A DNA stretch of 64,000 bases, from the IMG/VR virus record IMGVR_UViG_3300045996_002337, positions 124,001 through 188,000 of that record. One strand, 5' to 3'. Origin of the DNA: a virus. Positions 1 to 55,005 of the stretch are shown in pieces (within the stretch, counting starts at the first letter, position 1; every line of letters starts with the position of its first letter). The translations under genes and the position numbers were made by a program. Below the pieces are notes generated by a model. It did not search any database, was not told where the DNA came from, and worked only from the letters and a program-made list of their open reading frames with translations.

Positions 1-391
1 CTGCCAGAGCTTCCGCGGACGTGAAGGTCTTCTTCGTCTTGCACGCGATCGAGCCGTCCGCCAGCAGAACCGGCGTGATCATCGAACCATCACGCTTGTC
101 CATCACACGAACGATCCGATTCCAAGGAATCAGGTCGGGCTGCGTGGATTCGTTTTCGCCAACGTTTTGGAACTTGTGAAGGGTTCGCGCTACCACTCGC
201 CCCGTCGAGGTGTCGAAGGTGATACCACGGCATTCTTTGTACCAATCTTCGTGCTCACCGCGGAAGGTGTCTTCGTCTTGGAGCATGTAGCAGATGACGG
301 TCGTGCCGTTGGGCTGCTCAGCCACTCGGAACTGCGAGTTGCCTTCGATGTATGGGAGTAGATCATTGATGTGATTGATAGTTGGAAACAT
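1..391 (-). CDS. rnlA: T4 Rnl1-type RNA ligase, 3' part cut by window edge
   Basis: Translating the minus strand from the ATG at 391 gives 130 residues with no stop before the edge, so about two thirds of the protein is missing. The residues resemble the N-terminal adenylyltransferase domain of T4 RNA ligase 1 (gp63): an ECRGITFD stretch (53-60), an LHKFQNVGEN stretch, then the nucleotidyltransferase motif I MDKRDGSM, whose lysine is residue 99, the same number as the T4 Rnl1 nucleophile. The family joins 5'-phosphate and 3'-OH RNA ends with ATP and repairs tRNA broken by host anticodon nucleases. Fits with KptA and Thg1-like genes elsewhere in the window. Family call is firm; completeness cannot be judged. 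Confidence 0.88.
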   Translation of the reverse strand, partial: MFPTINHINDLLPYIEGNSQFRVAEQPNGTTVICYMLQDEDTFRGEHEDWYKECRGITFDTSTGRVVARTLHKFQNVGENESTQPDLIPWNRIVRVMDKRDGSMITPVLLADGSIACKTKKTFTSAEALA

Positions 392-400
392 TTTGATTCC

Positions 401-733
401 TTAGGCCACTTCGACTTGTGCTTCGACAAACGCGACATAGTCGGCGTACGGAATCGGCATGATGTCGTCTTGTTGGGTGATCACACACCAACCATTCTTG
501 TTGTAGTTTTGCTTCCTCGAGCACGGATAGAACATGTCGTCTTTCAGAACACCGATCGCTTGCCAGACCGACGGCGCGTCGAAGTCGAAACCGTAGAAGG
601 CCTTGAACTCACCGAAGATCACGAAACCCATTTCGTCGTATCGAACGACGTCTTTTGCCCGCCGCTGACCTTTCTTGCGGGTCGGAAAGCAAGCGGGGAA
701 GACATCACGACCGGCGGGTTTCTTGTCAGACAT
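401..733 (-). CDS. hypothetical protein (110 aa)
   Basis: Not recognised. A soluble, basic-then-acidic 110-residue protein lying just upstream of the RNA ligase gene on the same strand (9-nt gap), so probably co-transcribed with it. GGAAC lies about 7 nt before the ATG, and a promoter of the TGTACA/TAGAAT type lies at 763-791. Confidence 0.7.
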   Translation of the reverse strand: MSDKKPAGRDVFPACFPTRKKGQRRAKDVVRYDEMGFVIFGEFKAFYGFDFDAPSVWQAIGVLKDDMFYPCSRKQNYNKNGWCVITQQDDIMPIPYADYVAFVEAQVEVA

Positions 734-762
734 TTCGAGTTCCGTTTTGATTCGATAGATGT

Positions 763-791
763 ATTCTAACTCGAACCTGTATTTCTGTACA
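763..791 (-). promoter_or_regulatory. promoter, TGTACA-N17-TAGAAT
   Basis: The minus strand reads TGTACA, a 17-nt spacer containing ACAGGTTC, then TAGAAT. The flank ACATCTAT after the -10 is identical to that after the -10 at 56198-56203, and both promoters start TTGATGTACA. It should drive the 401-733 gene and the RNA ligase. Confidence 0.7.
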
Positions 792-808
792 TCAAATAAG
801 TGTAACGA

Positions 809-1063
809 TCAGGCTTGAGGTGTAGGCACGAGCCGGTGTGGGAATACGGAGCCTGTCGAGTTTACATCTTGCTCTTCGACCATCACACCATGACGATACA
901 CTTCAACGCGAGTGAAGTTCAACGTAACCTTGTCGCCAAGCTTTCCGTGAAGGATGTTCTTGGCCACCCCGAAGGCGATTTGGTTGTACTCTTCCTTGTC
1001 ACCACCGACGTGAATGAGATACTCGCGACCGAGCACGACATCTTGCATGAATGCGTCTCTCAT
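809..1063 (-). CDS. hypothetical protein (84 aa)
   Basis: Not recognised. It shares one base with the stop codon of the gene upstream (1063-1473), so translation is probably coupled. The sequence looks like a small beta-rich soluble protein with no membrane segment. Confidence 0.65.
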   Translation of the reverse strand: MRDAFMQDVVLGREYLIHVGGDKEEYNQIAFGVAKNILHGKLGDKVTLNFTRVEVYRHGVMVEEQDVNSTGSVFPHRLVPTPQA

Positions 1064-1473
1064 TACTTCACCAGCTCGTGAAGCGTGCCATCGGCCTTGC
1101 GACGACGAACTTCAGATTTCGAGATGCCATACTTCGCGGAGATTTCAGCCACCGTGCCAAGCTCGTGCGGCTGCTGATTCGCCTTCAGCTCTTCGAGAAC
1201 GACGGCTTTAGCAGCTTTTCGTTCTTGGTGATCTTCCTTGAAAGCGTAGTCCATCAAGATTTGGAGCTGATGCTTGAAGTTAGCCTTGATATTTTCGAGG
1301 CGCACAATGGCATCCGCTTCGTCTTTGGCATTCAGCTTGGCAGTTTCGAACAGGACTTCATCGTGCGAACCCATCGCAATACACGTGATGATCGTGAGTT
1401 GATCAGGACCAGGGGTAATTGCGCCAGAGATGATGCTCAGCCCACGCAGTGACAGTTCAGTGTTGATTTTCAT
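1063..1473 (-). CDS. small protein with C-terminal helix-turn-helix-like segment
   Basis: 136 residues. The C-terminal part (about 105-136) has the pattern EISAKYGISKSEVRRRK, a typical helix-turn-helix arrangement with a basic recognition helix; the middle (about 55-95) is a charged, probably coiled-coil helix. A DNA-binding or regulatory role is inferred from this pattern alone. Sits between two small unknown genes with near-zero spacing. Confidence 0.6.
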   Translation of the reverse strand: MKINTELSLRGLSIISGAITPGPDQLTIITCIAMGSHDEVLFETAKLNAKDEADAIVRLENIKANFKHQLQILMDYAFKEDHQERKAAKAVVLEELKANQQPHELGTVAEISAKYGISKSEVRRRKADGTLHELVK

Positions 1474-1475
1474 GA

Positions 1476-1817
1476 TCAGGCCTTTTTAACGTAGTGGGCA
1501 GTCATTGCGATCCGGACTTCAGGATTTGCCAATTGAGCGCAAACCGCTTTGAGGCCTTCAGCTGTTTCGTAGAAATAATCGACGATGAACACCCCCTCAA
1601 TCCCGAAGAGGCGGACAGTATCACCAACCCGATAGGAGCCAGTGTTACACGTGTATTCCAGCAGTTCAAGCTGATCCGGCAGAAAGAAATCCACCGTCGA
1701 ATCGGCGATCTGCTCTGCCTTAATCATGTTGAGAGCAAATCCCTTGATACAATATTCGGGAGAGCCACGTTTTCCAGCTTCGCGAACGATTTGGCCGACT
1801 TCGAAGGTGATGTTCAT
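1476..1817 (-). CDS. hypothetical protein (113 aa)
   Basis: Not recognised. First gene after the promoter at 1824-1852: its ATG begins 6 bp after the TATAAT box, so the mRNA is probably leaderless. The VGDTVRLFGIEGVFIVDYF segment suggests a small beta-barrel (SH3/KOW-like) fold; this is only an impression. Confidence 0.68.
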   Translation of the reverse strand: MNITFEVGQIVREAGKRGSPEYCIKGFALNMIKAEQIADSTVDFFLPDQLELLEYTCNTGSYRVGDTVRLFGIEGVFIVDYFYETAEGLKAVCAQLANPEVRIAMTAHYVKKA

Positions 1818-1823
1818 GAATGA

Positions 1824-1852
1824 ATTATATCCATAACATCACAGGTTGTACA
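1824..1852 (-). promoter_or_regulatory. promoter, TGTACA-N17-TATAAT, 6 bp from ATG
   Basis: Minus strand: TGTACA (1847-1852), 17-nt spacer starting ACCTGT, TATAAT (1824-1829), then 6 nt to the ATG at 1817. One of the clearest members of the class that recurs in this window. Confidence 0.8.
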
Positions 1853-1855
1853 CAA

Positions 1856-2173
1856 CTATTTTCCTGCTTTTATGCAGGCCAAAAGAAATGTTGCGCGATC
1901 GTCGGCGTTAGCGTCCTTGGTGATCTTAGTTGGGGGCGTCACCTCTTTCTCGCCAATTTGGCAGGTGATTACCCCGTCGAGCTTGCACACAACTGGGTCT
2001 TTTGATTTCTGTGGTGCAATGATCACAGTCTCTGGCGCACGAGGGTAATTAAGATTTGCCTTAATCTCGCATGTGGCCCGCAGTCGCGTTGTGTCGTCAA
2101 TGGTGGATTGGTTCATTGGCTGTGGAGACGAGCACCCCGCCAATGTGAGCAACAGAATCTGGTGAATACGCAT
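1856..2173 (-). CDS. small lipoprotein
   Basis: The start is the internal ATG at 2173, which gives MRIHQILLLTLAGCSS: short basic N-terminus, hydrophobic core, lipobox LAGC with Cys at residue 14. The mature part has about 92 residues with four further cysteines (CE, CK, CQ, C near the end), likely disulfide-bonded in the periplasm. Directly follows a 50-residue membrane protein gene (2178-2330). Function unknown; an outer-membrane spanin lipoprotein was considered but not supported. Confidence 0.7.
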   Translation of the reverse strand: MRIHQILLLTLAGCSSPQPMNQSTIDDTTRLRATCEIKANLNYPRAPETVIIAPQKSKDPVVCKLDGVITCQIGEKEVTPPTKITKDANADDRATFLLACIKAGK

Positions 2174-2177
2174 ATGC

Positions 2178-2330
2178 TTACCCCCAAAAATGTAGGGCAA
2201 GCGTCAACATCAAATTTACAGCAAAAAGCCCGGCAACTGCATGTTGAAGTCGCTTGATCTGTTTTGTCTGCTTTTCATCTACTTTGTTAAGATCTGTTTT
2301 TGTGACCGCGTTGTCACTTAGTATCTTCAT
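2178..2330 (-). CDS. small C-terminally anchored membrane protein (50 aa)
   Basis: An ATG-to-TAA frame encoding a charged, coiled-coil-like N-terminal half (with KVDEKQTKQIKRLQ) and one hydrophobic segment at about residues 31-49 (AGLFAVNLMLTLALHF). The stop lies 4 nt from the start of the lipoprotein gene downstream, and the gene fills what would otherwise be a gap. Function unknown. Confidence 0.6.
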   Translation of the reverse strand: MKILSDNAVTKTDLNKVDEKQTKQIKRLQHAVAGLFAVNLMLTLALHFWG

Positions 2331-2344
2331 GATGGTAGAAAATC

Positions 2345-3064
2345 CTATTCGTAGACCACCTCTCCCTTTTTCAAGGTTACTGGTGTCTGTTGGTTGATGT
2401 TGATGGGTGTAACTGCCTTACCCGGCTTTTTATATGAAGTGTTTTCGGATAGGCCAGATTCAAACCTCGCGTCTGAGTCTGCGGCAATCTCTGATATCTT
2501 GATCTTAATCGGTTCTGCTTTATTCTTCGATGGAGAAGGAAGTGGGGTACGCACCGGCGTAAATGTCTTCTTAGTGGTTTCCTTCATCAACTTTAAACTT
2601 TCGGCTTGAGGTGTCTTCGGCGCAGGAGGAGGGGCCGGCGTGTAAGTTGGAGTTGGAGGAACTACTGGCTTTTCTGGTGGCAGTGGCGTGGGCTCTTCAA
2701 CCTTCTTCAATGGCACCGCCCCACCCTCATCTTCCCATGTCTCAGTTTGTTGAGGGGTTTGGGTTGGAGTTGGAGGTGTGATTGTTTCTGCTGCAATAGA
2801 CGCACGCGATGCAATTGTCATTTTCTTCTTAAGTGGAGTGAAGAGCCGGCTGTTAACAAGGACCTCCACCCGCACGTCATAGTCATTAGCAGTGAATTCT
2901 TCAGGAATGAATACGTCACTTACCCAGCTGTCACCACTCTTCACAGCGTTAAAGCTGAGGTCGGCGTTGGGCGTTTCAATTACGAAACGCACAATGGGAG
3001 CGGACGAGGAGCCGTTCACATTCACCTTGAACGAAACTTGATTGTGCTTGCCAATTTCTATCAT
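2345..3064 (-). CDS. probable virion protein with proline-rich linker
   Basis: 239 residues. The N-terminal ~80 residues look like an immunoglobulin-type beta-sandwich (IGKHNQVSFKVNVNG, DVRVEVLVNSRLFTPL), followed by a long Pro/Thr-rich linker (about 95-170) and a short charged C-terminus. Overlaps the upstream gene by 4 nt and is the distal member of the tail-fibre operon 2345-13230, so a structural or decorative role is inferred from position. No specific family recognised. Confidence 0.55.
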   Translation of the reverse strand: MIEIGKHNQVSFKVNVNGSSSAPIVRFVIETPNADLSFNAVKSGDSWVSDVFIPEEFTANDYDVRVEVLVNSRLFTPLKKKMTIASRASIAAETITPPTPTQTPQQTETWEDEGGAVPLKKVEEPTPLPPEKPVVPPTPTYTPAPPPAPKTPQAESLKLMKETTKKTFTPVRTPLPSPSKNKAEPIKIKISEIAADSDARFESGLSENTSYKKPGKAVTPININQQTPVTLKKGEVVYE

Positions 3065-3447
3065 GTTGTGATCTCCAGTTCAGAGATATTTACAGTCACC
3101 AAATCATCATCTGAACTAATTTCAAGATCTGTGACAACTACGAACTCAAAACGCGTGGACATTTCTTGCGTCTCGATTCCTTGAACACCATCCATCTCTA
3201 CGGTAACTGAGACGAACGGCTGCTCCCAGTTTAATGGTGGCTGCTCAAGTTCTGGTGGGCGGTATGTGGCCGGATAGAGCTCAGGTCTAGTAGGGATTGC
3301 CCATCCGCCACCAGCTGGAGGTCGTGTCTCAGTTGGCGGAATATCTGGGCGCGCCTCAAGAATAAGACGCGCAAGCACCTTGGCGCGCTGCGTACCACAG
3401 AACGAATCAATGGTCGTCGTGCCGATGGTGCAGTAATTGATCGCCAC
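3061..3447 (-). CDS. hypothetical structural-region protein (128 aa)
   Basis: Not recognised. Has a Pro/Gly-rich middle (residues 35-75) flanked by beta-type sequence. It abuts the 179-residue gene upstream (stop 3447/3448) and overlaps the next gene by 4 nt. Placed in the virion block only by context. Confidence 0.6.
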   Translation of the reverse strand: MAINYCTIGTTTIDSFCGTQRAKVLARLILEARPDIPPTETRPPAGGGWAIPTRPELYPATYRPPELEQPPLNWEQPFVSVTVEMDGVQGIETQEMSTRFEFVVVTDLEISSDDDLVTVNISELEITT

Positions 3448-10391: not shown

Positions 10392-11798
10392 TTACGCCTT
10401 GAAGTAGCTCACGCGAATTTTGTCGCCTGGAGTCAACAGGTACAGCGTTGTAATGATCGTTCCACTTACAGTATAGTCATTGCCTGCCCCGGCATCTTGT
10501 AGTACGCCGTTGATAAAGAGCTCAACTGTTCCAGCTCTTGGGGTATGAGCAAGCACAAACGTGTCGTTTACACCATCGATTGCACCGGTAGGAACCTCGC
10601 CTTTTACGATGTCAGCAACGCGGACGACAGTAGCTGGATTTACTGTAACAACACCCGCTTCGTTGATAGTGACGTCACCAGACAAGGCAACAGTTGCATT
10701 TCCACCGGACGTACCAATAAGCAGGCGGCCGGCAGGGATCGTGACTAGCTTTGGAAGCGTGACGCTTGCATTTACCAGCTGAGTAGTCCCAACCGAGTTA
10801 GTTGAAAGCTGGATCTGTCCAGTTCCGGAAACAGTTGCTGCTCCAGAAATGGTCACATACGATGGAGTTCCTGAGTCACCAATTACGATAAGTTGACCAG
10901 TTGTACCACCTGCAAGCTTACTCAAGCCTAGGGTGCCATCGGCAATGCTCGTTGCGTTGACTGCGCCCTCAACGATGCGGGCGACGCCGGCAGAGTCAAT
11001 CGTGATGTCGCCAGAAATCGTTCTCGGGGTTGCAACATTGGCGCCAGAACCAATGAGCACCTGCCCCTCTGGTAGGTCTGAAAGCTTCAATCCGGCTGGA
11101 CCGACTGTAAGAGATGGGCCATCAAGTGTCAATGCAATTGCATCGGACGAGGCAACGATGCCGCCGTTAGAAGAGACCACATTCAACGTATTGCCGGTTT
11201 TCGCCAGACCTGTTCCAGCCAGGACAACACCTGCGGTTGAGAACTGCGCGAATGGAAGTGGTGTGGTGCCCAGAACGGTGGTACCGGTCGAGGTTAGAAC
11301 CCAACCAGTTCCAGCGTTTGCGTTACCCTCTTCAACGAAGGTGAAGAGCCCTGGAGTTACGTCGGCGGCAGTTGTTGCGTCAGGTGAACGGGTCCATCCA
11401 CCGGCAGCTACAATGTAGATACCGTTTTGAACGCTGTTTGATTGGCCAGCTAGAAGGACGCGATCGCCCACATTGAGGGACACCCCGTCAACTGTCTGCG
11501 TGCCAGACATTGGAATGCTCGTTGTGGCGACAGCACGAACAGAGAGCTTTACATCGAGACCCTGCGCCTGCGCGTCAACATATTCCTTAGTGGCGAGATG
11601 CCCGTTTTGACTAGGAGTTACGCCAGAGATTGGAGTCGTGAATGGGACAGAGCCATCAGACTTGATAAGCAGTGAGCCATCCTGAATTTTGGACAGCAGA
11701 ATACCATCCGGGTTTACCGGATCGGGAAGCGAAATTTGGGCGTTGGTAATCGACAGGTCCTGAACCTGTGTGTTACCGCGAATCTTGGTCAGGGCCAT
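10392..11798 (-). CDS. tail fibre protein with KEYVDAQ module (468 aa)
   Basis: The ATG at 11798 is preferred over the in-frame GTG at 11804 because AAGAGG lies 6 nt upstream. Contains the fibre module ATKEYVDAQAQGLDVKLSVR, then VDGVSLNVGDRVLLAGQ and NGIYIVAAGGWTRS, a module also present in the plus-strand fibre at 44314 (TKEYVDNFVQGLHWVGSARA). The C-terminus (DGVNDTFVLAHTP, TVELFINGVLQDAG) matches short domains common at fibre ends and echoes the neighbour at 11868. Late-type promoter box at 11837-11844. Confidence 0.82.
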   Translation of the reverse strand: MALTKIRGNTQVQDLSITNAQISLPDPVNPDGILLSKIQDGSLLIKSDGSVPFTTPISGVTPSQNGHLATKEYVDAQAQGLDVKLSVRAVATTSIPMSGTQTVDGVSLNVGDRVLLAGQSNSVQNGIYIVAAGGWTRSPDATTAADVTPGLFTFVEEGNANAGTGWVLTSTGTTVLGTTPLPFAQFSTAGVVLAGTGLAKTGNTLNVVSSNGGIVASSDAIALTLDGPSLTVGPAGLKLSDLPEGQVLIGSGANVATPRTISGDITIDSAGVARIVEGAVNATSIADGTLGLSKLAGGTTGQLIVIGDSGTPSYVTISGAATVSGTGQIQLSTNSVGTTQLVNASVTLPKLVTIPAGRLLIGTSGGNATVALSGDVTINEAGVVTVNPATVVRVADIVKGEVPTGAIDGVNDTFVLAHTPRAGTVELFINGVLQDAGAGNDYTVSGTIITTLYLLTPGDKIRVSYFKA

Positions 11799-11836
11799 GT
11801 CCACCTCTTAAGCGTTTGGTGTTAGCAGGATTGCTA

Positions 11837-47060: not shown

Positions 47061-47063
47061 CGG

Positions 47064-47089
47064 AAAAGGGTTCCTCACGGAACCCTTTT
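47064..47089 (+). terminator. rho-independent terminator
   Basis: Arms AAAAGGGTTCC and GGAACCCTTTT, TCAC loop, followed by T-rich sequence. Four nt after the receptor-binding-protein stop. Confidence 0.88.
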
Positions 47090-47092
47090 TCT

Positions 47093-47129: not shown

Positions 47130-48620
47130 TTATGACAGTGTCACAGCATGACCCCAAAGCCCATCGATGTGATCTACGACAGCTACTGCGTCGTCCTCAT
47201 CGAGCGTGCGGCCAAGATACGGCTTGTACTTCAGGACAAGAGCGCGGTCGTCCTTAGGCGTTCCGATACCAGTAACCGCGATCTGCGGAACGTAGTTGAT
47301 TCGCTCCATGGACCGAGCCAGAGAATTACGGAGGTTTTGGTATCCCACATCGTCGTGAATCTCACTTACGAATGCGCTCGGATCTTCTTCTTCCTCGTCA
47401 TCTGGGTAATTCACCTTGACCGAGAACATCTTCATGTCTCGGATGACCTTCGGTGAAAGATACTGCGCCACGAAGCTGTCGTCGCGGTGCTCAAACGCTG
47501 CTTCCTTGACGGCATCCTGCCAACGCTTTCCAATTAGCTGGGGGAACCATTCACGGTCCTCATCCGTTGGATTTTCGCAGATGCGTTTCACGTCCATGAG
47601 AATGTTAAAGCCGAGGGCATACGGGTTAATGCCGCTGTACCAGCGCTTCGTGTACTCAGGTTGATAGATGACACCGCTGTGGTAGTTCAAGAACGAAATG
47701 AAGGCGTCAGGTGAAAGGAACCCCTTCTCCTCCAACCGGGTCATGATGTAGTAGTGTGTGAAGGTTGCAAAGCCTTCGTTCAGGTTCTTCGTCTGCCCCT
47801 GCGGGTAGAAGTATTGATTCACCTTGTACACGATCCGAAGAATTTCACGCTTCCACTGGGGCAGAGTAGACGAGTTCTTCATGATAAAGTAGAGAAGATT
47901 CTCTTCTTCCTCGATCTGGTCATCCTCATCATGATCAGAAAGGTCAACTTCCTTGAAGCTTGTTTTCTTCAAGATGATGTCCAGCTCACGCTGCTTAGCC
48001 TCTTCATCATCGAGCAGCTTCTTCAGTCGAGATTCCTCGCTCAACTTGGGCTGGTGCTTCCGCTTGAACTTGTCAACGCCGTGAGGGGCAATCGCGTGGG
48101 CAGCATCAAGAACTTCCTCGACCTCTTCCTCACCGTACCGGTCTTCGCATTGACGAATGTAATCGCGCGCGAAGATCATGTAGTCAACGATGGAGCCTGC
48201 ATTTGTCCACTGCTTGAAGCACTCGTTGTTCTTGAACACAGCGTTATGGCCGATGGCCGCGTGCGCAATCACCATCGTCTGCATGAGCATGTCGTTTTCC
48301 TCCATGAGGTACGAAATGCACGGGTTCGTGTTGATCACGATTTCATATGCAAGGCCTTGGTGGCCTTTCTCATAAGCGCGCGAGCTCTTGAGAAAGTCCT
48401 TACCAAAGGACCAGTGGTTGTAGTGGATCGGAAGACCGATTGAGCTGTACGCATCGAGCATCTGCTCAGCGGAGATGATTTCGATGGAGTTAGGGTAGAA
48501 GTCCACGCCGGGCTTCAGTTCCATCTCCTCCTCTGCAATCTTCTCAATCTCCTTATACATCCTCGCAATCAGATCTGGGGTCCAATCGGTACGTGATGTG
48601 ACATAGAGCGGTTCAGTCAT
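47130..48620 (-). CDS. spoVR: SpoVR family protein (YcgB-like)
   Basis: 496 residues, full family length. N-terminal VDFYPNSIEIISAEQMLDAY and IGLPIHYNHWSFGKDF, YEIVINTNPCISYLMEENDM, HAAIGHNAVFKNNECFK, and NEGFATFTHYYIMTRLEEKG, PEYTKRWYSGINPYALGFNI, all hallmarks of SpoVR/YcgB. Biochemical function unknown; in bacteria it is co-expressed with PrkA (YeaG) and YeaH in stationary phase and sporulation. Here it is the last gene of the trio, 4-nt overlap with the YeaH-like gene. Confidence 0.95.
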   Translation of the reverse strand: MTEPLYVTSRTDWTPDLIARMYKEIEKIAEEEMELKPGVDFYPNSIEIISAEQMLDAYSSIGLPIHYNHWSFGKDFLKSSRAYEKGHQGLAYEIVINTNPCISYLMEENDMLMQTMVIAHAAIGHNAVFKNNECFKQWTNAGSIVDYMIFARDYIRQCEDRYGEEEVEEVLDAAHAIAPHGVDKFKRKHQPKLSEESRLKKLLDDEEAKQRELDIILKKTSFKEVDLSDHDEDDQIEEEENLLYFIMKNSSTLPQWKREILRIVYKVNQYFYPQGQTKNLNEGFATFTHYYIMTRLEEKGFLSPDAFISFLNYHSGVIYQPEYTKRWYSGINPYALGFNILMDVKRICENPTDEDREWFPQLIGKRWQDAVKEAAFEHRDDSFVAQYLSPKVIRDMKMFSVKVNYPDDEEEEDPSAFVSEIHDDVGYQNLRNSLARSMERINYVPQIAVTGIGTPKDDRALVLKYKPYLGRTLDEDDAVAVVDHIDGLWGHAVTLS

Positions 48621-49978
48621 TTCTTACCTTTCTTCTTTCCATACAGCGACTTGAAGGCATCGAATACCTGCGCCTCATCAGCAATTTTAACACAAGCCAG
48701 CTTACGGTTAGTGTTAGAAATTGACATCATGACGTTCCACAGAGTGGGTGAACCGCCAAACGAAGCTGCAAAGTTTTGACCGACTTGAACATACACGGCA
48801 TGTCGCACCTTTGCGAGGAGGCCCTTAGTTTCAATTTCATCAATCACGTTTGCGTTATCATTGTCCCAGTTGTCACCGTCACCAGCATACGACAGGTAAA
48901 TGTTTGTCTGATTCGCATCATACCGTGACTTGATGATGTCATGCATCATTGCCCAGGCTGGTGAGACCGTCGTGCCACCACTCAAGCGCGTGGTGAAAAA
49001 CTCCTCTTCAGAGAGCTCGTGCGGCTCGTCAGTGTGAGCGATGAAGATCAGGTCAGTCGTCGGGTACTTACGCTTAATGAAGGCGTACTGTAGAGAGAAG
49101 AACTTGCGCGCCATCCGCTTCTTATCTTCATCCATCGACCCTGAAACGTCCATGATCATGCCAAGCACGGCGTCTGACGCCTTTACTTGAACCTTCTCAG
49201 ATTTACGGTAACGAAGATCAACATCCTCAAAAATCGGCATTGACGAGACCTTCTGCTTCAGCTCAGCGATGCGCAGCGCAACTTCCTGAACGCGAAGTGC
49301 CCATGCATCTACGCCTGCCTCATGCTCATGATCGTCGGCCATGAGCTCAGCCAGCTCAGCCTCAAGCTCAGCAAGTTCATCACGTGAGTCCTTTGTAAGA
49401 GCCAGTCGCCGCGCCTTTGAGTGCTTGAAGGACCGAATTACTGAAAGTTGCCCTGGGTTGCCGACCTTTTGGAAGCCTGCCCGTTGCATCTTGAATTCTG
49501 GCAGGTCCTTCTCGTGCGTTTCCTTCAGGTCTGGTAGTTCGCAGTCCTCAAAGAACACGTCAAAGAACTCAGAGCGCGAGATGTTGACGATGAAGTCATC
49601 TTCACCTTCTTCACCAGGGCCATTGCCGTTTCCACGACCACCTGATCCTCCGCTAGGGTTGATTGGAAATTCATCTCCCTTCAGCCAGTGATCGTTGCCA
49701 ATCAGGACGATTTCGCGCTCACCAATGTTTGGGTCGTAATGAAATGTCGGTTCGCTCAATGCGTGCCGCGCAACTTTAACCGGGTTCGTGTAGTTGCCGG
49801 CCCCCTGAGGGCCACCGGCTTTGCCCACGCCGCCAGCATCGATGTCTTCAGGCTTCGCATTCTTAATCGAATCCTTGACGCGCTTCAGCAACTTCTGTCG
49901 GTTATTCAGCGACTTTCCACGACCAGTCTTACGTCGATCGACGAAGATAAAGGTCGTGGAGGTAGGAGTGGTAGCCAT
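48617..49978 (-). CDS. yeaH: YeaH/DUF444 vWA-domain protein
   Basis: 453 residues. N-terminal IFVDRRKTGRGKSLNNRQKL and a Gly-rich linker (about 118-140, with GGSGGRGNGNGPGEEGED), DFIVNISRSEFFDVFFEDCE, then a von Willebrand A domain with the MIDAS start MIMDVSGSMDEDKKRMARKF, LIFIAHTDEPHELSEEEFF, TRLSGGTTVSPAW and YLSYAGDGDNWDNDN. DUF444 proteins are always found with PrkA-type kinases and are thought to be partners or substrates. Between prkA and spoVR. Confidence 0.95.
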   Translation of the reverse strand: MATTPTSTTFIFVDRRKTGRGKSLNNRQKLLKRVKDSIKNAKPEDIDAGGVGKAGGPQGAGNYTNPVKVARHALSEPTFHYDPNIGEREIVLIGNDHWLKGDEFPINPSGGSGGRGNGNGPGEEGEDDFIVNISRSEFFDVFFEDCELPDLKETHEKDLPEFKMQRAGFQKVGNPGQLSVIRSFKHSKARRLALTKDSRDELAELEAELAELMADDHEHEAGVDAWALRVQEVALRIAELKQKVSSMPIFEDVDLRYRKSEKVQVKASDAVLGMIMDVSGSMDEDKKRMARKFFSLQYAFIKRKYPTTDLIFIAHTDEPHELSEEEFFTTRLSGGTTVSPAWAMMHDIIKSRYDANQTNIYLSYAGDGDNWDNDNANVIDEIETKGLLAKVRHAVYVQVGQNFAASFGGSPTLWNVMMSISNTNRKLACVKIADEAQVFDAFKSLYGKKKGKK

Positions 49979-49998
49979 TCCTAACCTCCTTTAGTTAA

Positions 49999-51963
49999 TT
50001 ACGACGACTTACGGTTGTTGGAAAACCAATTGACCAAGATTTGAACTTGGTGTGGGGTGTAACCCTTTTCAACCATACGCTCAACAAAACCGCGGTGCTT
50101 CTCTTCGGTTTCCTTGTCTTGCTTTGGACCGAAGGCAATCACTGGCATGATTTGCTCAGTGGCAGCGAACATGCGCTTTTCGATGACCGTCTTGATCTTT
50201 TCGTACTGGTCCCAGCGAGGCGACTTGCCTTCGTTCTTCGCCTTGTGACGGAGAACATAGTGCACGATGTCATTGCGGAAGTCCTTCGCGTTTGTAATCG
50301 CGGCGGCCTTTTCAATTTCCTCAAGCTTCTGATTCAGCGTGTCGCGGTTGAGAAGCTGATGTGTTTCGGGATCACGGGTCTGTTCATCATCGATCCATGC
50401 TGCAGCGAACTGAACATAACGTTCGAACATGTTCTGACCGAACGAGCTGTACGACTCAAGGTAGGCGGTGCGCAGTTCTTTCTCGAGGAACTCGAAATAG
50501 CGCGGTTGCAGGTGCGACTTGATGAAGTCAACGTAGCGCGTGAACTTCTCTTCAGGGAGAGCCTCCTTCTTGATCGCCTCTTCGATGACATACATCAGGT
50601 CGATCGGGTTCGCTTGGAACTCCTCTGGACGAAGGTCAAAGACCGACGACAGAACCTTGAAGGCAAAACGGGTCGACATGCCGTTCATTCCTTCATCAAC
50701 GCCAGCTGCATCGCGATACTCTTCGTACGGCTTGGCGTTCGGCATCGTGTCCTTAACGTTCTCGCCGTTGTACACACGAAGCTTGGCGTAGATCGTCGAG
50801 TTTTCCGGTTCCTTGAGACGCGTCAGAATCATCCACTGCGCAAGCATCTTCAACGTGCCGGGGGCGATCGGTGCCTTGCTGAGGCTGGAGCCGCTCAGCA
50901 TCTTCTCGTAGATCTTGATCTCCTCGTTCACGCGCAGGCAGTACGGCACATCAACGATAAAGACGCGGTCCAAGAAAGCTTCGTTCGTCTTGTTGTTCTT
51001 GAACGCGAACCATTCAGATTCGTTCGAGTGGGCGCAGATGATGCCGGTGTAAGGCATCGCGGGGATGGCTTCCGTGCCGTTGTAGTTGTGTTCTTGCGTT
51101 GCCATCAGGAGCGGGTTAAGCGTCTTGATGTTCGCCTTGAACATTTCAGCGAAGTCCATCAGGCCTTGGTTCGTGCGGTTCAAGCCACCGCTGTACGAGT
51201 ACGAGTACGGGTGATTCTGCGGGAACTTCTCCAGCTTGCGCAGGTCTGTCTTGCCGATCAGGACCGAAACGTCTTGGTTGTTCTCATCGCCTGGCTCGAC
51301 CTTCATGACGCCGATTTGGCGATCCTTATTAGGCCACAGCTTTACGACCGAGAAGCGGGTGATGTCGCCACCGAATTCCTGCAGCTTTTGCTGAGCCCAG
51401 CCAGAGAGAACAGTTTGGCCGATCAGGTTGCGCGGAATGCCGATTTCATTGACGAGCGCCATGTGATCTGCATCGTACTTGTCGAACAGGCCGAGCGGGC
51501 TTTCAAAGACTGGCGAGGTGGCCAGCTCAGGGTCCTTTTCGCTTGCATCGTGCAGCACGTAGATGGGGTGCTTCTCCATCAGCGATTTCAGGCGTTCGAC
51601 GAGTGAGGACTTACCACCACCGACTGGACCCTTGAGGTACAGGATCTGCTTGGATTCTTCCAGGCCGGCCGACGCGTGGCGGAAGTAGGCGGCAATGCGT
51701 TCGATGGTGTCTTCCATGCCGTGGAAGTCGTCGAAGCCTTGGTAAAGGCGGACCTTCTTGTTCGAGTGAATGCGCGAAAGGCGCGGATCCTCAGAGGTGT
51801 CAACGATGCGTGCATCGCCAATTGCTGCAACCATGCGCTCTGCAGCGGTTGCGTAGGCCATCTGGTCCGTCTTGCAGAGGTCCAGATATTGATCGAGGGT
51901 TAGAACCTCGGGCTTGGAAAACTTCTTCTCGAAAGAAGCCTTGAGAGATGACAAGGTGCTCAT
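49999..51963 (-). CDS. prkA: PrkA-type serine protein kinase / AAA ATPase
   Basis: 654 residues, close to host YeaG/PrkA. AAA_PrkA domain with Walker A YLKGPVGGGKSSLVERL, FESPLGLFD, LFDKYDADHMALV, RTNQGLMDFAEMFKANIKTL, AMPYTGIICAHSNESEW, and the C-terminal kinase-like region with NDIVHYVLRHKAKNEGKSPR and PVIAFGPKQDKETEEKHRGF. Known PrkA proteins act in stress, carbon-starvation and sporulation programmes. First gene of the trio; a late-like TAAATA box lies 45 nt upstream. Confidence 0.96.
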   Translation of the reverse strand: MSTLSSLKASFEKKFSKPEVLTLDQYLDLCKTDQMAYATAAERMVAAIGDARIVDTSEDPRLSRIHSNKKVRLYQGFDDFHGMEDTIERIAAYFRHASAGLEESKQILYLKGPVGGGKSSLVERLKSLMEKHPIYVLHDASEKDPELATSPVFESPLGLFDKYDADHMALVNEIGIPRNLIGQTVLSGWAQQKLQEFGGDITRFSVVKLWPNKDRQIGVMKVEPGDENNQDVSVLIGKTDLRKLEKFPQNHPYSYSYSGGLNRTNQGLMDFAEMFKANIKTLNPLLMATQEHNYNGTEAIPAMPYTGIICAHSNESEWFAFKNNKTNEAFLDRVFIVDVPYCLRVNEEIKIYEKMLSGSSLSKAPIAPGTLKMLAQWMILTRLKEPENSTIYAKLRVYNGENVKDTMPNAKPYEEYRDAAGVDEGMNGMSTRFAFKVLSSVFDLRPEEFQANPIDLMYVIEEAIKKEALPEEKFTRYVDFIKSHLQPRYFEFLEKELRTAYLESYSSFGQNMFERYVQFAAAWIDDEQTRDPETHQLLNRDTLNQKLEEIEKAAAITNAKDFRNDIVHYVLRHKAKNEGKSPRWDQYEKIKTVIEKRMFAATEQIMPVIAFGPKQDKETEEKHRGFVERMVEKGYTPHQVQILVNWFSNNRKSS

Positions 51964-52007: not shown

Positions 52008-52014
52008 TATTTAG
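52008..52014 (-). promoter_or_regulatory. late-type box CTAAATA before prkA
   Basis: Minus-strand CTAAATA, 45 nt before the prkA ATG. The spacer also holds TTAAAGGGGATT with the ribosome binding site. Weaker match than CATAAATA. Confidence 0.4.
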
Positions 52015-52031
52015 AGAGTAATGGAAAGCGT

Positions 52032-52451
52032 TTAGGTTTGCTCGCCCTCCGAAACATGGTCAAGATGGAACATTTGTCCATGAACGACGGCGCTCGTTTC
52101 AATGACGAGGTTGCGGTAAAGAATTTTCTTCGCGATCAACTTGGCGCCAGCCTTGACCGCAAGAGTACCCTCAACTCGAATTACATCACACACGAGGTTG
52201 CCGGTGATGATGACGTTTGTGACAGTGACGTCTAGCGCCCGGTCAAAAGATGGAGCACTCAGCTTGCCATTGACAACCAGGGTGGTTTTAGTATCCACCT
52301 TACCATCCTCGGCAGGGATCGTTGAGATAACCTGCGCTGCGACTTCTCCGTCGATAACGAAGGTGCCGTTACGGGCGAGCGTGATGTCACCAGTAATTTT
52401 GGTACCAGCGCCAATCAGCGAATCAAAACCGCGGGGGCGAAAAATGCTCAT
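52032..52451 (-). CDS. bactofilin-like protein
   Basis: 139 residues. SLIGAGTKITGDITLARNGT, FVIDGEVAAQV, TTLVVNGKLSAPS, VTNVIITGNLVCDVIRVEGT, LAVKAGAKLIAKKILYRNLV, then a short polar tail. This is the repeating GxxxxGxI pattern of the bactofilin (DUF583) beta-helix, a bacterial cytoskeletal polymer former. Rare in phages; may form a filament or scaffold. ATGA overlap with DHFR. Confidence 0.82.
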   Translation of the reverse strand: MSIFRPRGFDSLIGAGTKITGDITLARNGTFVIDGEVAAQVISTIPAEDGKVDTKTTLVVNGKLSAPSFDRALDVTVTNVIITGNLVCDVIRVEGTLAVKAGAKLIAKKILYRNLVIETSAVVHGQMFHLDHVSEGEQT

Positions 52452-53011
52452 CGTGCTCTCTTCAAAGTAATAAACGTAAAGTGGATGCCGTCATCAGTTT
52501 GTTGACGGTCGCTCATTTCGGTAAGATACCATTTTACACCAATTTTCGCCTGTTGGAGGACAAATAGCTTCCAGGCGCTCAGGTCGAAGGGCAAAATAAC
52601 ATCGCCACCAGAGTTTTCATCGACGAGTGTCAAGTAAATTTCATCGACCATCTTCAGCTCCAACGCCTGCGCATAGACGTTGGCGCCACCAATGAGCCAG
52701 ACATCTGGTGCGGTGCGCCCAAGGCATGCCTGTGATGCCTGAACCCAATCGAAACTGGAGATGATGTCGATCTTGTCACCTGACTTCCCGCGAATTTCAC
52801 CGTAAGGTTTCCGAGTCATCACGATGTTTCGACGGTTTGGGAGACCATTTGGTCTCCCGAGAGATTCGAAGGTGTTCCATCCCATGACAACTGTGCCGCC
52901 AGTCGTGAGCTCCTTGAACCGTGCCATGTCCCCGGGAATCTTCCACGGCAGACGACCATCTTTCCAACCAATCGCGTTGCCGCGATCGACCGCCACGATC
53001 ATCTTCAGCAT
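52448..53011 (-). CDS. folA: dihydrofolate reductase
   Basis: 187 residues. MIVAVDRGNAIGWKDGRLPW, DMARFKELTTGGTVVMGWNT, SLGRPNGLPNRRNIVMTRKP, and VWLIGGANVYAQAL, the DHFR pattern including the acid residue used for hydride transfer (DMARFKE). Regenerates tetrahydrofolate for ThyA. Small 20-residue insertion before the C-terminus. Confidence 0.96.
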   Translation of the reverse strand: MLKMIVAVDRGNAIGWKDGRLPWKIPGDMARFKELTTGGTVVMGWNTFESLGRPNGLPNRRNIVMTRKPYGEIRGKSGDKIDIISSFDWVQASQACLGRTAPDVWLIGGANVYAQALELKMVDEIYLTLVDENSGGDVILPFDLSAWKLFVLQQAKIGVKWYLTEMSDRQQTDDGIHFTFITLKRAR

Positions 53012-53268
53012 TCGATAAGCTCCTTTAGATTTTCAACCGGTGGGATGGGGCCACGTGAAAAACGGCTGTAGAAAAGATCAGTGCACGACTTTGGGCCGAT
53101 GTAATCATAGTTGACGTAGTAGTCTGGTACTGGAAGTTCTCGATCTTTCATCGCTTCCATGCTATATTTCAGCGCCTCAGCTTCAGTTCTGAACGTCAAG
53201 TATCCGCTGATTCTTGAACCCCAGCCCCGCTCATATTCAACACGCTCTATAACGTAAACAATCTTCAC
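53005..53268 (-). CDS. hypothetical protein (87 aa)
   Basis: GTG start at 53268 overlapping the HD gene stop (GTGA) with GGAAC upstream. Not recognised; charged alpha/beta protein (FRTEAEALKYSMEAMKDREL). Confidence 0.6.
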   Translation of the reverse strand: MKIVYVIERVEYERGWGSRISGYLTFRTEAEALKYSMEAMKDRELPVPDYYVNYDYIGPKSCTDLFYSRFSRGPIPPVENLKELIEC

Positions 53269-53942
53269 GGTTGTTCCAATGTTTCCTGCTTTGGCTCATA
53301 TGCGTTCATGATGTGCTCAATCAGCTGCAATTGGTTGATCAGTTGCAACTTGATGTTCTCGAACACGCCTTCTTGGTCAGGGAACCGACGACGGGCAAGC
53401 TTGATACGGTGCAGGAACTCTTCGACGGTTTCTTTGATGTAGCGCTCAAGGCGAGCTGGCTTGAACACACCAAACATCGTTGCAACGTTGTTTGCGCGGT
53501 CACCCGCTTTCACGACCGCGGTGTCTTCATCCGCGAAGATGGTATCAAGGCTGTAATCTGGGTTCTTGATGCCCATGATTTCCTTAGACAGCTTGCGAAC
53601 TTTTTCGGCGATCTGATCACCCCAAAGCTGCGAAACTTCTTCAAGCGAGACGTAGTGCTTTTGCTTCGTTTCTTTATCAGTGCGCGGGTCTTCAACTGCG
53701 TCGTGAAGGAACACGAGGATATAAACCGTCACCGGGTTGCGGATGTGCCGGTGCAAGGTGCGAAGGTCGTGAAAGATGCTCAACTGGTGGATGAACTCCG
53801 GTTCACCGCCGTTGCGCAGTCCGTCGTGGTGGGCTGCGCCATATTCCATGGCTTCGAGGACCTTGAAATAACGGTGATCAGACTCCGCCATTCCAAGAAG
53901 CCAGTAGCGGGCGGCGATCATCAGCTTTTCGTATTTGGTCAT
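53265..53942 (-). CDS. HD-domain (p)ppGpp-hydrolase-like protein
   Basis: 225 residues; ATG 53942 lies 6 bp from TATAAT. HD pattern: AAHHDGLRNGGEPEFIHQL (SpoT-type H..R..GEP.I.H), LVFLHDAVEDPRTD (HD with ED), and AVVKAGDRANNVATM (D-R-x-N-N, as in KLADRLHN). These match the hydrolase half of RelA/SpoT and Mesh1. No synthetase domain. It may remove (p)ppGpp made by the starving host; related HD enzymes also act on other nucleotides, so substrate is inferred. Confidence 0.82.
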   Translation of the reverse strand: MTKYEKLMIAARYWLLGMAESDHRYFKVLEAMEYGAAHHDGLRNGGEPEFIHQLSIFHDLRTLHRHIRNPVTVYILVFLHDAVEDPRTDKETKQKHYVSLEEVSQLWGDQIAEKVRKLSKEIMGIKNPDYSLDTIFADEDTAVVKAGDRANNVATMFGVFKPARLERYIKETVEEFLHRIKLARRRFPDQEGVFENIKLQLINQLQLIEHIMNAYEPKQETLEQP

Positions 53943-53948
53943 AAGTTT

Positions 53949-53954
53949 ATTATA
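53949..53954 (-). promoter_or_regulatory. TATAAT box 6 bp before HD-domain ATG
   Basis: Minus-strand TATAAT, AAACTT, ATG. No TGTACA at -35. Confidence 0.52.
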
Positions 53955-53968
53955 ACACAAAAGCGCGA

Positions 53969-54763
53969 TTAGCCCTGAACGATTGGCGCACCTTTAAACA
54001 GCGCCGCTACACCATCAGGTTGCTTAGACAGCCAGATGTCAAGCTGATCGATAAATGATCGTTCGACAGGTCCAGTTGGCCGGTGCTTTTCCGGAATCTT
54101 CGCGAGTTGATCTTCAGTCAGCATGCGTTCTTCGCGAACCCGGCGAGCGAACGTGCCGCGCTTGAAGAAATACGGATAGTCGTTGAAGTTGATCCCCACC
54201 TTGAAAAGCATCTCCTGCATCTCAGGTCCGCTCTTGTGCTGCAGTTCCTTGTGCGAGAACATAGATTGGGCCGCCATGGAGATGGCGTTCTTCGTTGCAT
54301 CCTGCTGGCGCCAAAGCACGCAGTTGTAGGCCTCAACGAGGTTAGGAACCACGAAGGCCCGAGCATCGAAGATTGGAAGCTGATCGGCCTTCTCAGGCAG
54401 GTGGAACTCGAGCTGCTTGTTGAAGTACGCGGTGGCGTAGGAAGCGCACAGCGACTCCATCTTCTGGATGCGCCCGTTGAACGGGTAGTCAGCGCTGGAG
54501 AACGAGTCCTCGTAGAAAACGAGGGTGATTTCATCCGACTGAGTGTAACCAACGATGGAACCCATGCGGTCAACCAGCGCCTTCATCGTCTCCACCATGA
54601 GGGCGCTCAGCCGTGTATCATATGGCCGCTTGAGCCCCTTGGTGAAGGTGTGAAAGGACTTGCCATCCAGTCGCACGATCAGCGGTTGTCCCTTGAATGC
54701 TTTTCGCGAGGTCGTAACGGCCTCGTAAGATTTCATCCGATCACCTAGGTCGTCCATGCTCAT
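53969..54763 (-). CDS. Thg1-like tRNA 5'-nucleotidyltransferase
   Basis: 264 residues; ATG 54763 chosen because GGAG sits 5 nt upstream and it overlaps the lipoprotein stop. Thg1 pattern: LIVRLDGKSFHTFTKGLKRP (metal-binding Asp), VDRMGSIVGYTQSDEITLVF (second Asp pair), PYFFKRGTFARR, and QDATKNAISMAAQSMFSHKE. Thg1-like proteins add nucleotides to the 5' end of tRNA in the 3'-5' direction, repairing truncated 5' ends. Fits Rnl1 and KptA as a tRNA-maintenance set. Confidence 0.93.
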   Translation of the reverse strand: MSMDDLGDRMKSYEAVTTSRKAFKGQPLIVRLDGKSFHTFTKGLKRPYDTRLSALMVETMKALVDRMGSIVGYTQSDEITLVFYEDSFSSADYPFNGRIQKMESLCASYATAYFNKQLEFHLPEKADQLPIFDARAFVVPNLVEAYNCVLWRQQDATKNAISMAAQSMFSHKELQHKSGPEMQEMLFKVGINFNDYPYFFKRGTFARRVREERMLTEDQLAKIPEKHRPTGPVERSFIDQLDIWLSKQPDGVAALFKGAPIVQG

Positions 54764-55005
54764 TTCTCCACTCCACATTTAATGCCCACTGCGGCGATTC
54801 CGGCAGTGCCATTCCATTCATTTCTGATTTTTGGGGCCAATCCACCACCTTCAGATACTAGGTAAACGTAGCCGTCGTAGCAAACTTCATTAAGATTGAT
54901 AACAGGCCTGGCAGCCGCCACCTTTGTTACCAGGTGCGCATCTTCATTTTTCTGACCACACGCCACTAGCATCAGAGCTGCAACCACAGAAATTACGCGT
55001 TTCAT
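54760..55005 (-). CDS. small lipoprotein (81 aa)
   Basis: Start at ATG 55005: MKRVISVVAALMLVACGQ, with lipobox VAC-G (Cys 16) and a 65-residue periplasmic part with two Cys (CYDG, CGVEK). Unknown. 4-nt overlaps on both sides. Confidence 0.72.
   Translation of the reverse strand: MKRVISVVAALMLVACGQKNEDAHLVTKVAAARPVINLNEVCYDGYVYLVSEGGGLAPKIRNEWNGTAGIAAVGIKCGVEK

Follow-up and report, generated by a model that had tools for sequence, protein, structure and literature searches.

The bacterial genes prkA, yeaH, and spoVR are widespread and are needed for sporulation or for survival of starvation. In Legionella adelaidensis they form one operon (EL206_RS08015-08025), and the counterpart in E. coli consists of yeaGH plus an unlinked ycgB. 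Here, we describe a complete copy of this trio in a 64,000-nucleotide (nt) stretch of viral DNA (the window; positions 124,001 to 188,000 of IMG/VR record IMGVR_UViG_3300045996_002337, or G000:C1:124001-188000), which is part of a 349,660-bp T4-type jumbo-phage contig. The trio lies at 47130-51963 on the minus strand and shares its families and gene order with the Legionella operon, with similar lengths, and its PrkA is 57-58% identical to Pseudomonadota copies. It departs from the bacterial operon in that the phage copies form clades of their own, SpoVR and YeaH score below the NCBI equivalog cutoffs, and the genes follow a late-type box of the phage and have phage genes as neighbours. We regard the window copy as a phage-adapted form of a known bacterial module. 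Our preferred explanation, to which we assign a probability of roughly 0.55, is that the trio is a Pseudomonadota-derived cassette kept by selection, which would work as an ATP-driven remodelling machine rather than a kinase, be made late, and act on host or virion proteins.

Related sets have been visible for some time in phage annotation, namely, in the GenBank record of phiYS40 and in the Ralstonia jumbo phage RsoM2USA (343,806 bp, 2021). The authors of the latter listed SpoVR (ORF28, 506 amino acids [aa], placed under replication/cell cycle) and PrkA (ORF30, 648 aa) separately; the interval between these open reading frames (ORFs) leaves room for a DUF444 gene, a likeness known from the published annotation alone. 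The Thermus phages phiYS40, phiLo, MN1, and Lalka8 have all three families adjacent or nearly so, as in the window, and Pfam confirmed SpoVR in Lalka8 and MN1. These phages differ from ours in gene order (vWA>SpoVR>PrkA), in PrkA identity (24-28%), in their shorter vWA proteins, and in a separate origin. Unannotated huge phages of 595-642 kb also carry the trio; in three such records of 634-642 kb (LR745206, LR756502, and LR756504) PrkA is 54-55% identical to that of the window, and YeaH and SpoVR are present, but they occupy separate tree branches. In LR756502, spoVR lies ~245 kb from prkA-yeaH, yet has been retained. From an oxygen-minimum zone, spoVR has been reported as a viral auxiliary gene (PMC8940887), and we found no paper that handles the trio as one phage unit in the open-licence literature searched. 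What is new here is the recurrence of the trio as a unit, its late placement, and its possible reading as an AAA+/vWA machine.

A complete trio among phage genes

All three genes are full length. prkA (49999-51963, minus strand) encodes a 654-aa PrkA-family AAA+ ATPase with a PrkA C-terminal domain, as assigned by Pfam (AAA_PrkA, 5e-152; C-terminal domain, 5.7e-62, profile positions 2-255 of 255) and NCBIfam (975 bits, far above the equivalog cutoff of 576). Pfam and alignment identify yeaH (48617-49978, minus strand) as coding for a 453-aa DUF444 vWA-domain protein with a complete metal ion-dependent adhesion site (MIDAS) (8e-113, positions 1-417 of 418), and spoVR (47130-48620, minus strand) as coding for a 496-aa SpoVR-family protein (7.9e-139, positions 1-404 of 407; SpoVR_C, 2.4e-9). 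In NCBIfam, YeaH (385 bits against 396) and SpoVR (625 against 679) fall slightly under their equivalog cutoffs. An earlier description, made from the letters of the window without database searches (the sequence-only reading), had reported an untruncated phage trio and proposed profile searches for the three families; all three match over their full length. It had also called the genes adjacent and overlapping, which holds for spoVR and yeaH, with a 4-nt overlap, but not for yeaH and prkA, which are separated by a 20-nt gap. With three genes on one strand in the order prkA>yeaH>spoVR, the locus classes as a prkA-yeaH-spoVR operon.

Host DNA in the flanks would have undermined the sequence-only reading, and we found phage genes on both sides of the trio, including topoisomerase, helicase, thymidylate synthase, dihydrofolate reductase (DHFR), tail fibre, and other virion genes (PHROGs). 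The contig also codes for a T4-type Gp23 capsid protein (6.5e-87) and for TerL. Codon usage of the trio correlates with that of other phage genes (r, 0.89-0.91), and its GC content is 51-54%, against 51.5% for the window. When records were selected by the capsid of the window phage rather than by PrkA, prkA and spoVR were present in 3 of 3 records of at least 300 kb; the shorter capsid-selected records are fragments, some of which share samples with trio-bearing fragments. On the strength of the phage flanks, the phage-like codon usage, and these capsid-selected relatives, we rejected host contamination.

The sequence-only reading implied that a phage trio is a rarity, and the searches contradict this. 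Searching IMG/VR with PrkA yielded 80 loci, and 76 of them proved in profile searches to hold all three genes; the other four (L006, L049, L056, and L057) are cut by contig ends. The trio-bearing loci fall into three phage groups. Group A, to which the window belongs, has contigs of up to 368 kb and the bacterial order prkA>yeaH>spoVR. Group B (~31% PrkA identity) has the order yeaH>spoVR>prkA, and group C (~28% PrkA identity; contigs of up to ~160 kb) follows the bacterial order. With three such groups and the Thermus phages, the idea that the trio is unique to one phage was rejected.

Descent was followed with quick maximum-likelihood trees of PrkA, SpoVR, and YeaH, with SH-aLRT support only. 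Bacterial sampling was thin: one scan of genome contigs turned up relatives in Bacillota only, and Pseudomonadota copies came from plasmid or chromid records. The bacterial gene order prkA>yeaH>spoVR was seen in L104, L107, and L109. The three gene trees are congruent. The core of group A (22-23 rows, including the window) forms one clade with support of 100 in all three trees, within a Pseudomonadota-type clade; group B is one clade (support, 98-99), beside Clostridia in the PrkA and SpoVR trees; and group C is one deep clade (support, 99-100). The Thermus phages, L028, L030, and L090 have long branches, and their tree positions are unsure. Because the trees are congruent and each group is a single clade, they indicate that phages gained the trio at least three times, as a set each time. 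Its retention after at least three acquisitions, even where the genes are unlinked, is independent evidence for action as one system. The trio is under purifying selection in phages, with dN/dS medians of 0.04-0.29 and a maximum of 0.47.

Likeness to AAA+/vWA remodelling machines

The sequence-only reading had pointed to the PrkA Walker A motif GPVGGGKSS and the YeaH vWA domain, and alignments bear this out. PrkA residues G112, P113, K118, S119, D231, E273, and R333 are invariant in 43 of 43 homologues, leaving no active-site substitution; the YeaH MIDAS (D277-x-S279-x-S281, T336, and D367) is invariant in 44 of 44; and H120, H125, E282, and H289 of SpoVR are invariant in 56 of 56.

The suggestion that the phage uses PrkA to phosphorylate host targets fared less well. 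The structure model of PrkA (predicted local distance difference test score [pLDDT], 87.9) matches the folds of Lon, BchI, ClpC, sigma54 activators, NorQ, and complexes of NorQ with the vWA protein NorD. Structures of BchI and NorQ rank among the strongest of these matches, and no kinase fold of any sort occurs among its 50 best PDB fold matches. A PrkA structure is itself present in the PDB (9xip). Purified Bacillus anthracis PrkA had negligible kinase and protease activity and formed oligomers with ATP (PMC13001217). The kinase label for PrkA appears weak.

In NorQ-NorD, BchI-BchD, and RavA-ViaA, as in PrkA-YeaH, an AAA+ motor is encoded together with a MIDAS-vWA partner, and NorQD inserts iron by twisting the vWA partner (PMC13036017). 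PrkA differs from NorQ, BchI, and RavA in having its own C-terminal domain and a third partner, SpoVR, and it has no sequence-level membership in the MoxR family: the Pfam scan of PrkA gave AAA_PrkA, PrkA, and a subthreshold AAA_16 match only. The resemblance, which comes from fold similarity in single-chain predictions and from the intact MIDAS, would be one of working and not of membership. By analogy with the NorQ-NorD arrangement, PrkA-YeaH looks like an AAA+/vWA remodelling machine that acts with SpoVR. We infer that PrkA would be the motor for ATP-driven protein remodelling, that YeaH would serve as its adaptor, as NorD does for NorQ or ViaA for RavA, and that SpoVR, probably a protein with a metal site, would act as dedicated partner or client. 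DUF444 gave nothing significant against solved structures. The SpoVR model (pLDDT, 88.6) has one strong BFVD match, to an entry without a name; its gluzincin-type matches (M61, DPP III, and IrrE) had E values above 1 and were not used as evidence.

LAGLIDADG inteins interrupt trio genes in four relatives (L050, L065, L078, and L081), at the motifs that are best conserved. The two SpoVR inteins, of L050 in group B and of L081 in group C, share one site, NEGWA^T, inside the E282-H289 motif, and, as inteins tend towards active sites, this motif is independently marked as functional. The YeaH intein of L065 lies directly before SGGT, which holds the MIDAS threonine, and the PrkA intein of L078 lies within the invariant PxDxxQD. 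No group I introns were found in trio genes by Rfam. In another locus (L013:13651-15704), yeaH is broken into two ORFs around a 181-aa ORF without known family, with DUF7487 proteins on the flanks; this interruption had no Rfam intron match. Among 150 genomes, four Bacillota (G031, G067, G109, and G127) have prkA split at one position (profile ~272-276) by 4-60 kb, and these splits look like skin-type elements, similar to vrin in spoVR (PMC4191935).

Timing, genome position, and competing explanations

The late-like box that the sequence-only reading placed before prkA is real: TCTAAATA, at 52008-52015 on the minus strand, precedes the prkA ATG by 52 nt and has one mismatch to the T4 late core TATAAATA, which has no exact occurrence in the window. 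The window contains 12 NNTAAATA sites, 10 of which lie 30-61 nt before an ORF, and besides prkA they precede three tail-fibre/virion genes (40562, 44314, and 10392-11804). Across the phage group of the window, 75 of 138 upstream occurrences fall in a peak 30-49 nt before genes. At 52 nt, against this group-wide peak, prkA classes as a putative T4-type late gene on a near variant of the core. Late expression, one half of the earlier suggestion of late expression or packaging, is plausible for prkA of the window, given a box common to structural genes.

Group C has the trio inside the module portal-protease-scaffold-major capsid protein (MCP)-[trio]-TerL-adaptor, where it is bordered by a small ORF, c3, and by TerL. 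Capsid-based sampling found it between c3 and TerL in seven close relatives, and the c3-prkA-yeaH-spoVR-terL block is intact in L068 and L076 despite inverted flanks. In L130 and L133, two further relatives, MCP-c3-TerL is present but the trio is absent, so in group C the trio is an added, dispensable late cassette and not a core part of packaging. In Lalka8 the order is portal, minor head protein, vWA, SpoVR, PrkA, two small ORFs, and TerL, and in phiYS40 the trio adjoins TerL in convergent orientation. In the window phage, the distance from the trio to TerL is ~160 kb, and that to the capsid gene is ~145 kb. The c3 proteins (~160 aa; e.g., L079:9271-9795) are always encoded directly before prkA and, in the trio-less relatives, directly before TerL; they have no PHROG or Pfam match and, by position, are perhaps small terminases.

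Taken together, these data suggest that a Pseudomonadota-type prkA-yeaH-spoVR operon would have become a cassette kept by selection in a T4-like jumbo-phage lineage, and that the trio, probably made with the late genes, may act during the second half of infection, on proteins of the host or of the virion. Several observations weigh against this. The exact NNTAAATA box occurs at 7 of 19 group-A prkA genes examined; about 7 of 19 have CATAGAATA instead, possibly a -10 element for sigma70, and 4 of 19 have none evident. Whole-chain fold alignments of PrkA have low TM-scores, of 0.2-0.3, and NorQ is only one of several AAA+ classes that the model matched. Kinase activity of YeaG in vitro has been reported in earlier work (cited in PMC4664914). 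The SpoVR model has no significant PDB match, and its probable metal site is drawn from residue conservation alone. Phage copies of the trio are known from sequence and models only, and L130 and L133 do without it.

The position of the trio might also be explained by a role in virion morphogenesis or packaging, in which, much as an assembly chaperone specific to phages, it would remodel head or packaging proteins or would itself enter the particle and be injected. The group-C head module, the block that stays whole between inverted flanks, the Lalka8 trio between a minor head gene and TerL in a different gene order, the phiYS40 trio beside TerL, and the late-type box of the window all fit such a role. 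Against it stand L130 and L133, which keep MCP-c3-TerL without the trio, the great distance of the window trio from TerL and the capsid gene, and the tendency of unrelated cargo to gather in late operons. The two trio-less relatives cost packaging its place as leading explanation, and we consider this role unlikely, if worth keeping in mind. A broader and more speculative version, for which we would hold out a slender chance, is that the trio is a general ATP-driven maturation machine recruited repeatedly by phages as a late assembly or packaging module; were this true, the function of the bacterial stress operon would be protein or metal-centre remodelling, and it could be read on the phage particle.

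Alternatively, in a wider form of the proposal in the sequence-only reading that the phage installs or mimics a host dormancy or stress program, the trio might copy the YeaG/YeaH "metabolic brake" and hold the host quiescent but viable through a long infection, via kinase signalling or otherwise. YeaG/YeaH quiesce the metabolism of nitrogen-starved E. coli (PMC10954441) and are needed for its survival (PMC4664914), the relative RsoM2USA has a latent period of 270 min (PMC8504454), and genes close to the trio in the same group of phages code for a SpoT-like HD protein and for a homologue of Ro60/Rsr. The late-type box and the placement in late modules, however, fit early host takeover poorly, and the negligible kinase activity of B. 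anthracis PrkA (PMC13001217) is a further point against. Host-state control seems doubtful to us, marginally more so than a morphogenetic role. Counter-defence functions are common in phages, and a trio that blunts toxin-antitoxin (TA) or abortive-infection responses late in infection is conceivable, as yeaG reduces the expression of mqsRA and dinJ-yafQ in E. coli (PMC4664914). That effect on TA genes is transcriptional, however, and neither PrkA, YeaH, nor SpoVR had a PADLOC match, which also led us to set aside the trio as a defence system; we think counter-defence quite improbable. Finally, the trio could be a passenger or an artefact, either host DNA misassembled into the contig or cargo without function. 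A genuine case of this kind exists in Enterobacter phage LAU1 (MN688132, labelled a complete genome), in which positions 1-3308, at the edge of the record, are an Enterobacter yeaG-yeaH piece, probably host DNA at a prophage edge and thus a false case of a phage trio. For the trio described here, the chance of this is negligible, given the phage genes that flank it, its phage-like codon usage, 23 group-A rows in one supported clade, dN/dS well below 1, and prkA and spoVR in all three long capsid-selected records.

The phage copies also open a new route to the function of the three bacterial genes. In the window and in group C the trio stands with late genes, which assigns it to a definite stage, and phages make its function directly testable through deletable genes, purifiable particles, and natural trio-less relatives (L130 and L133). 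Residues to mutate are given by the intein sites and by the conserved positions of SpoVR.

Neighbouring genes and further observations

Between the convergent ends of spoVR and a plus-strand phage gene (46269-47060) lies a terminator-like stem-loop of 13 bp (47062-47091, no strand assigned), found by terminator scan and direct reading of the sequence; it is probably used as a terminator from both sides. Directly upstream of prkA, on the same strand, the interval 52032-54778 codes for a bactofilin, DHFR, and a Thg1-type tRNA-His guanylyltransferase, and bactofilin and DHFR are kept in 19-21 group-A loci. Two genes upstream of DHFR, at 53265-53960 (minus strand), is a gene for a SpoT/RelA-type HD protein (TIGR00691, residues 8-141, 2.8e-7; phrog_15275/990) with HDxxED and DR..N motifs, possibly a (p)ppGpp hydrolase, relatives of which occur near the trio in 13 group-A loci. 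The Ro60/Rsr homologue (57253-58953, minus strand), with TROVE and Ro60 vWA domains, is encoded upstream of the trio in 18 group-A loci.

Elsewhere on the contig, two adjoining Terminase_6N matches (G000:C1:337772-339156), one with an internal stop in G000, recur as a pair in G005 and G008, and TerL looks duplicated or interrupted in group A. In one group-C phage, a tmRNA gene (RF00023, 7.9e-40) follows directly after spoVR (L065:17790-18156, plus strand).

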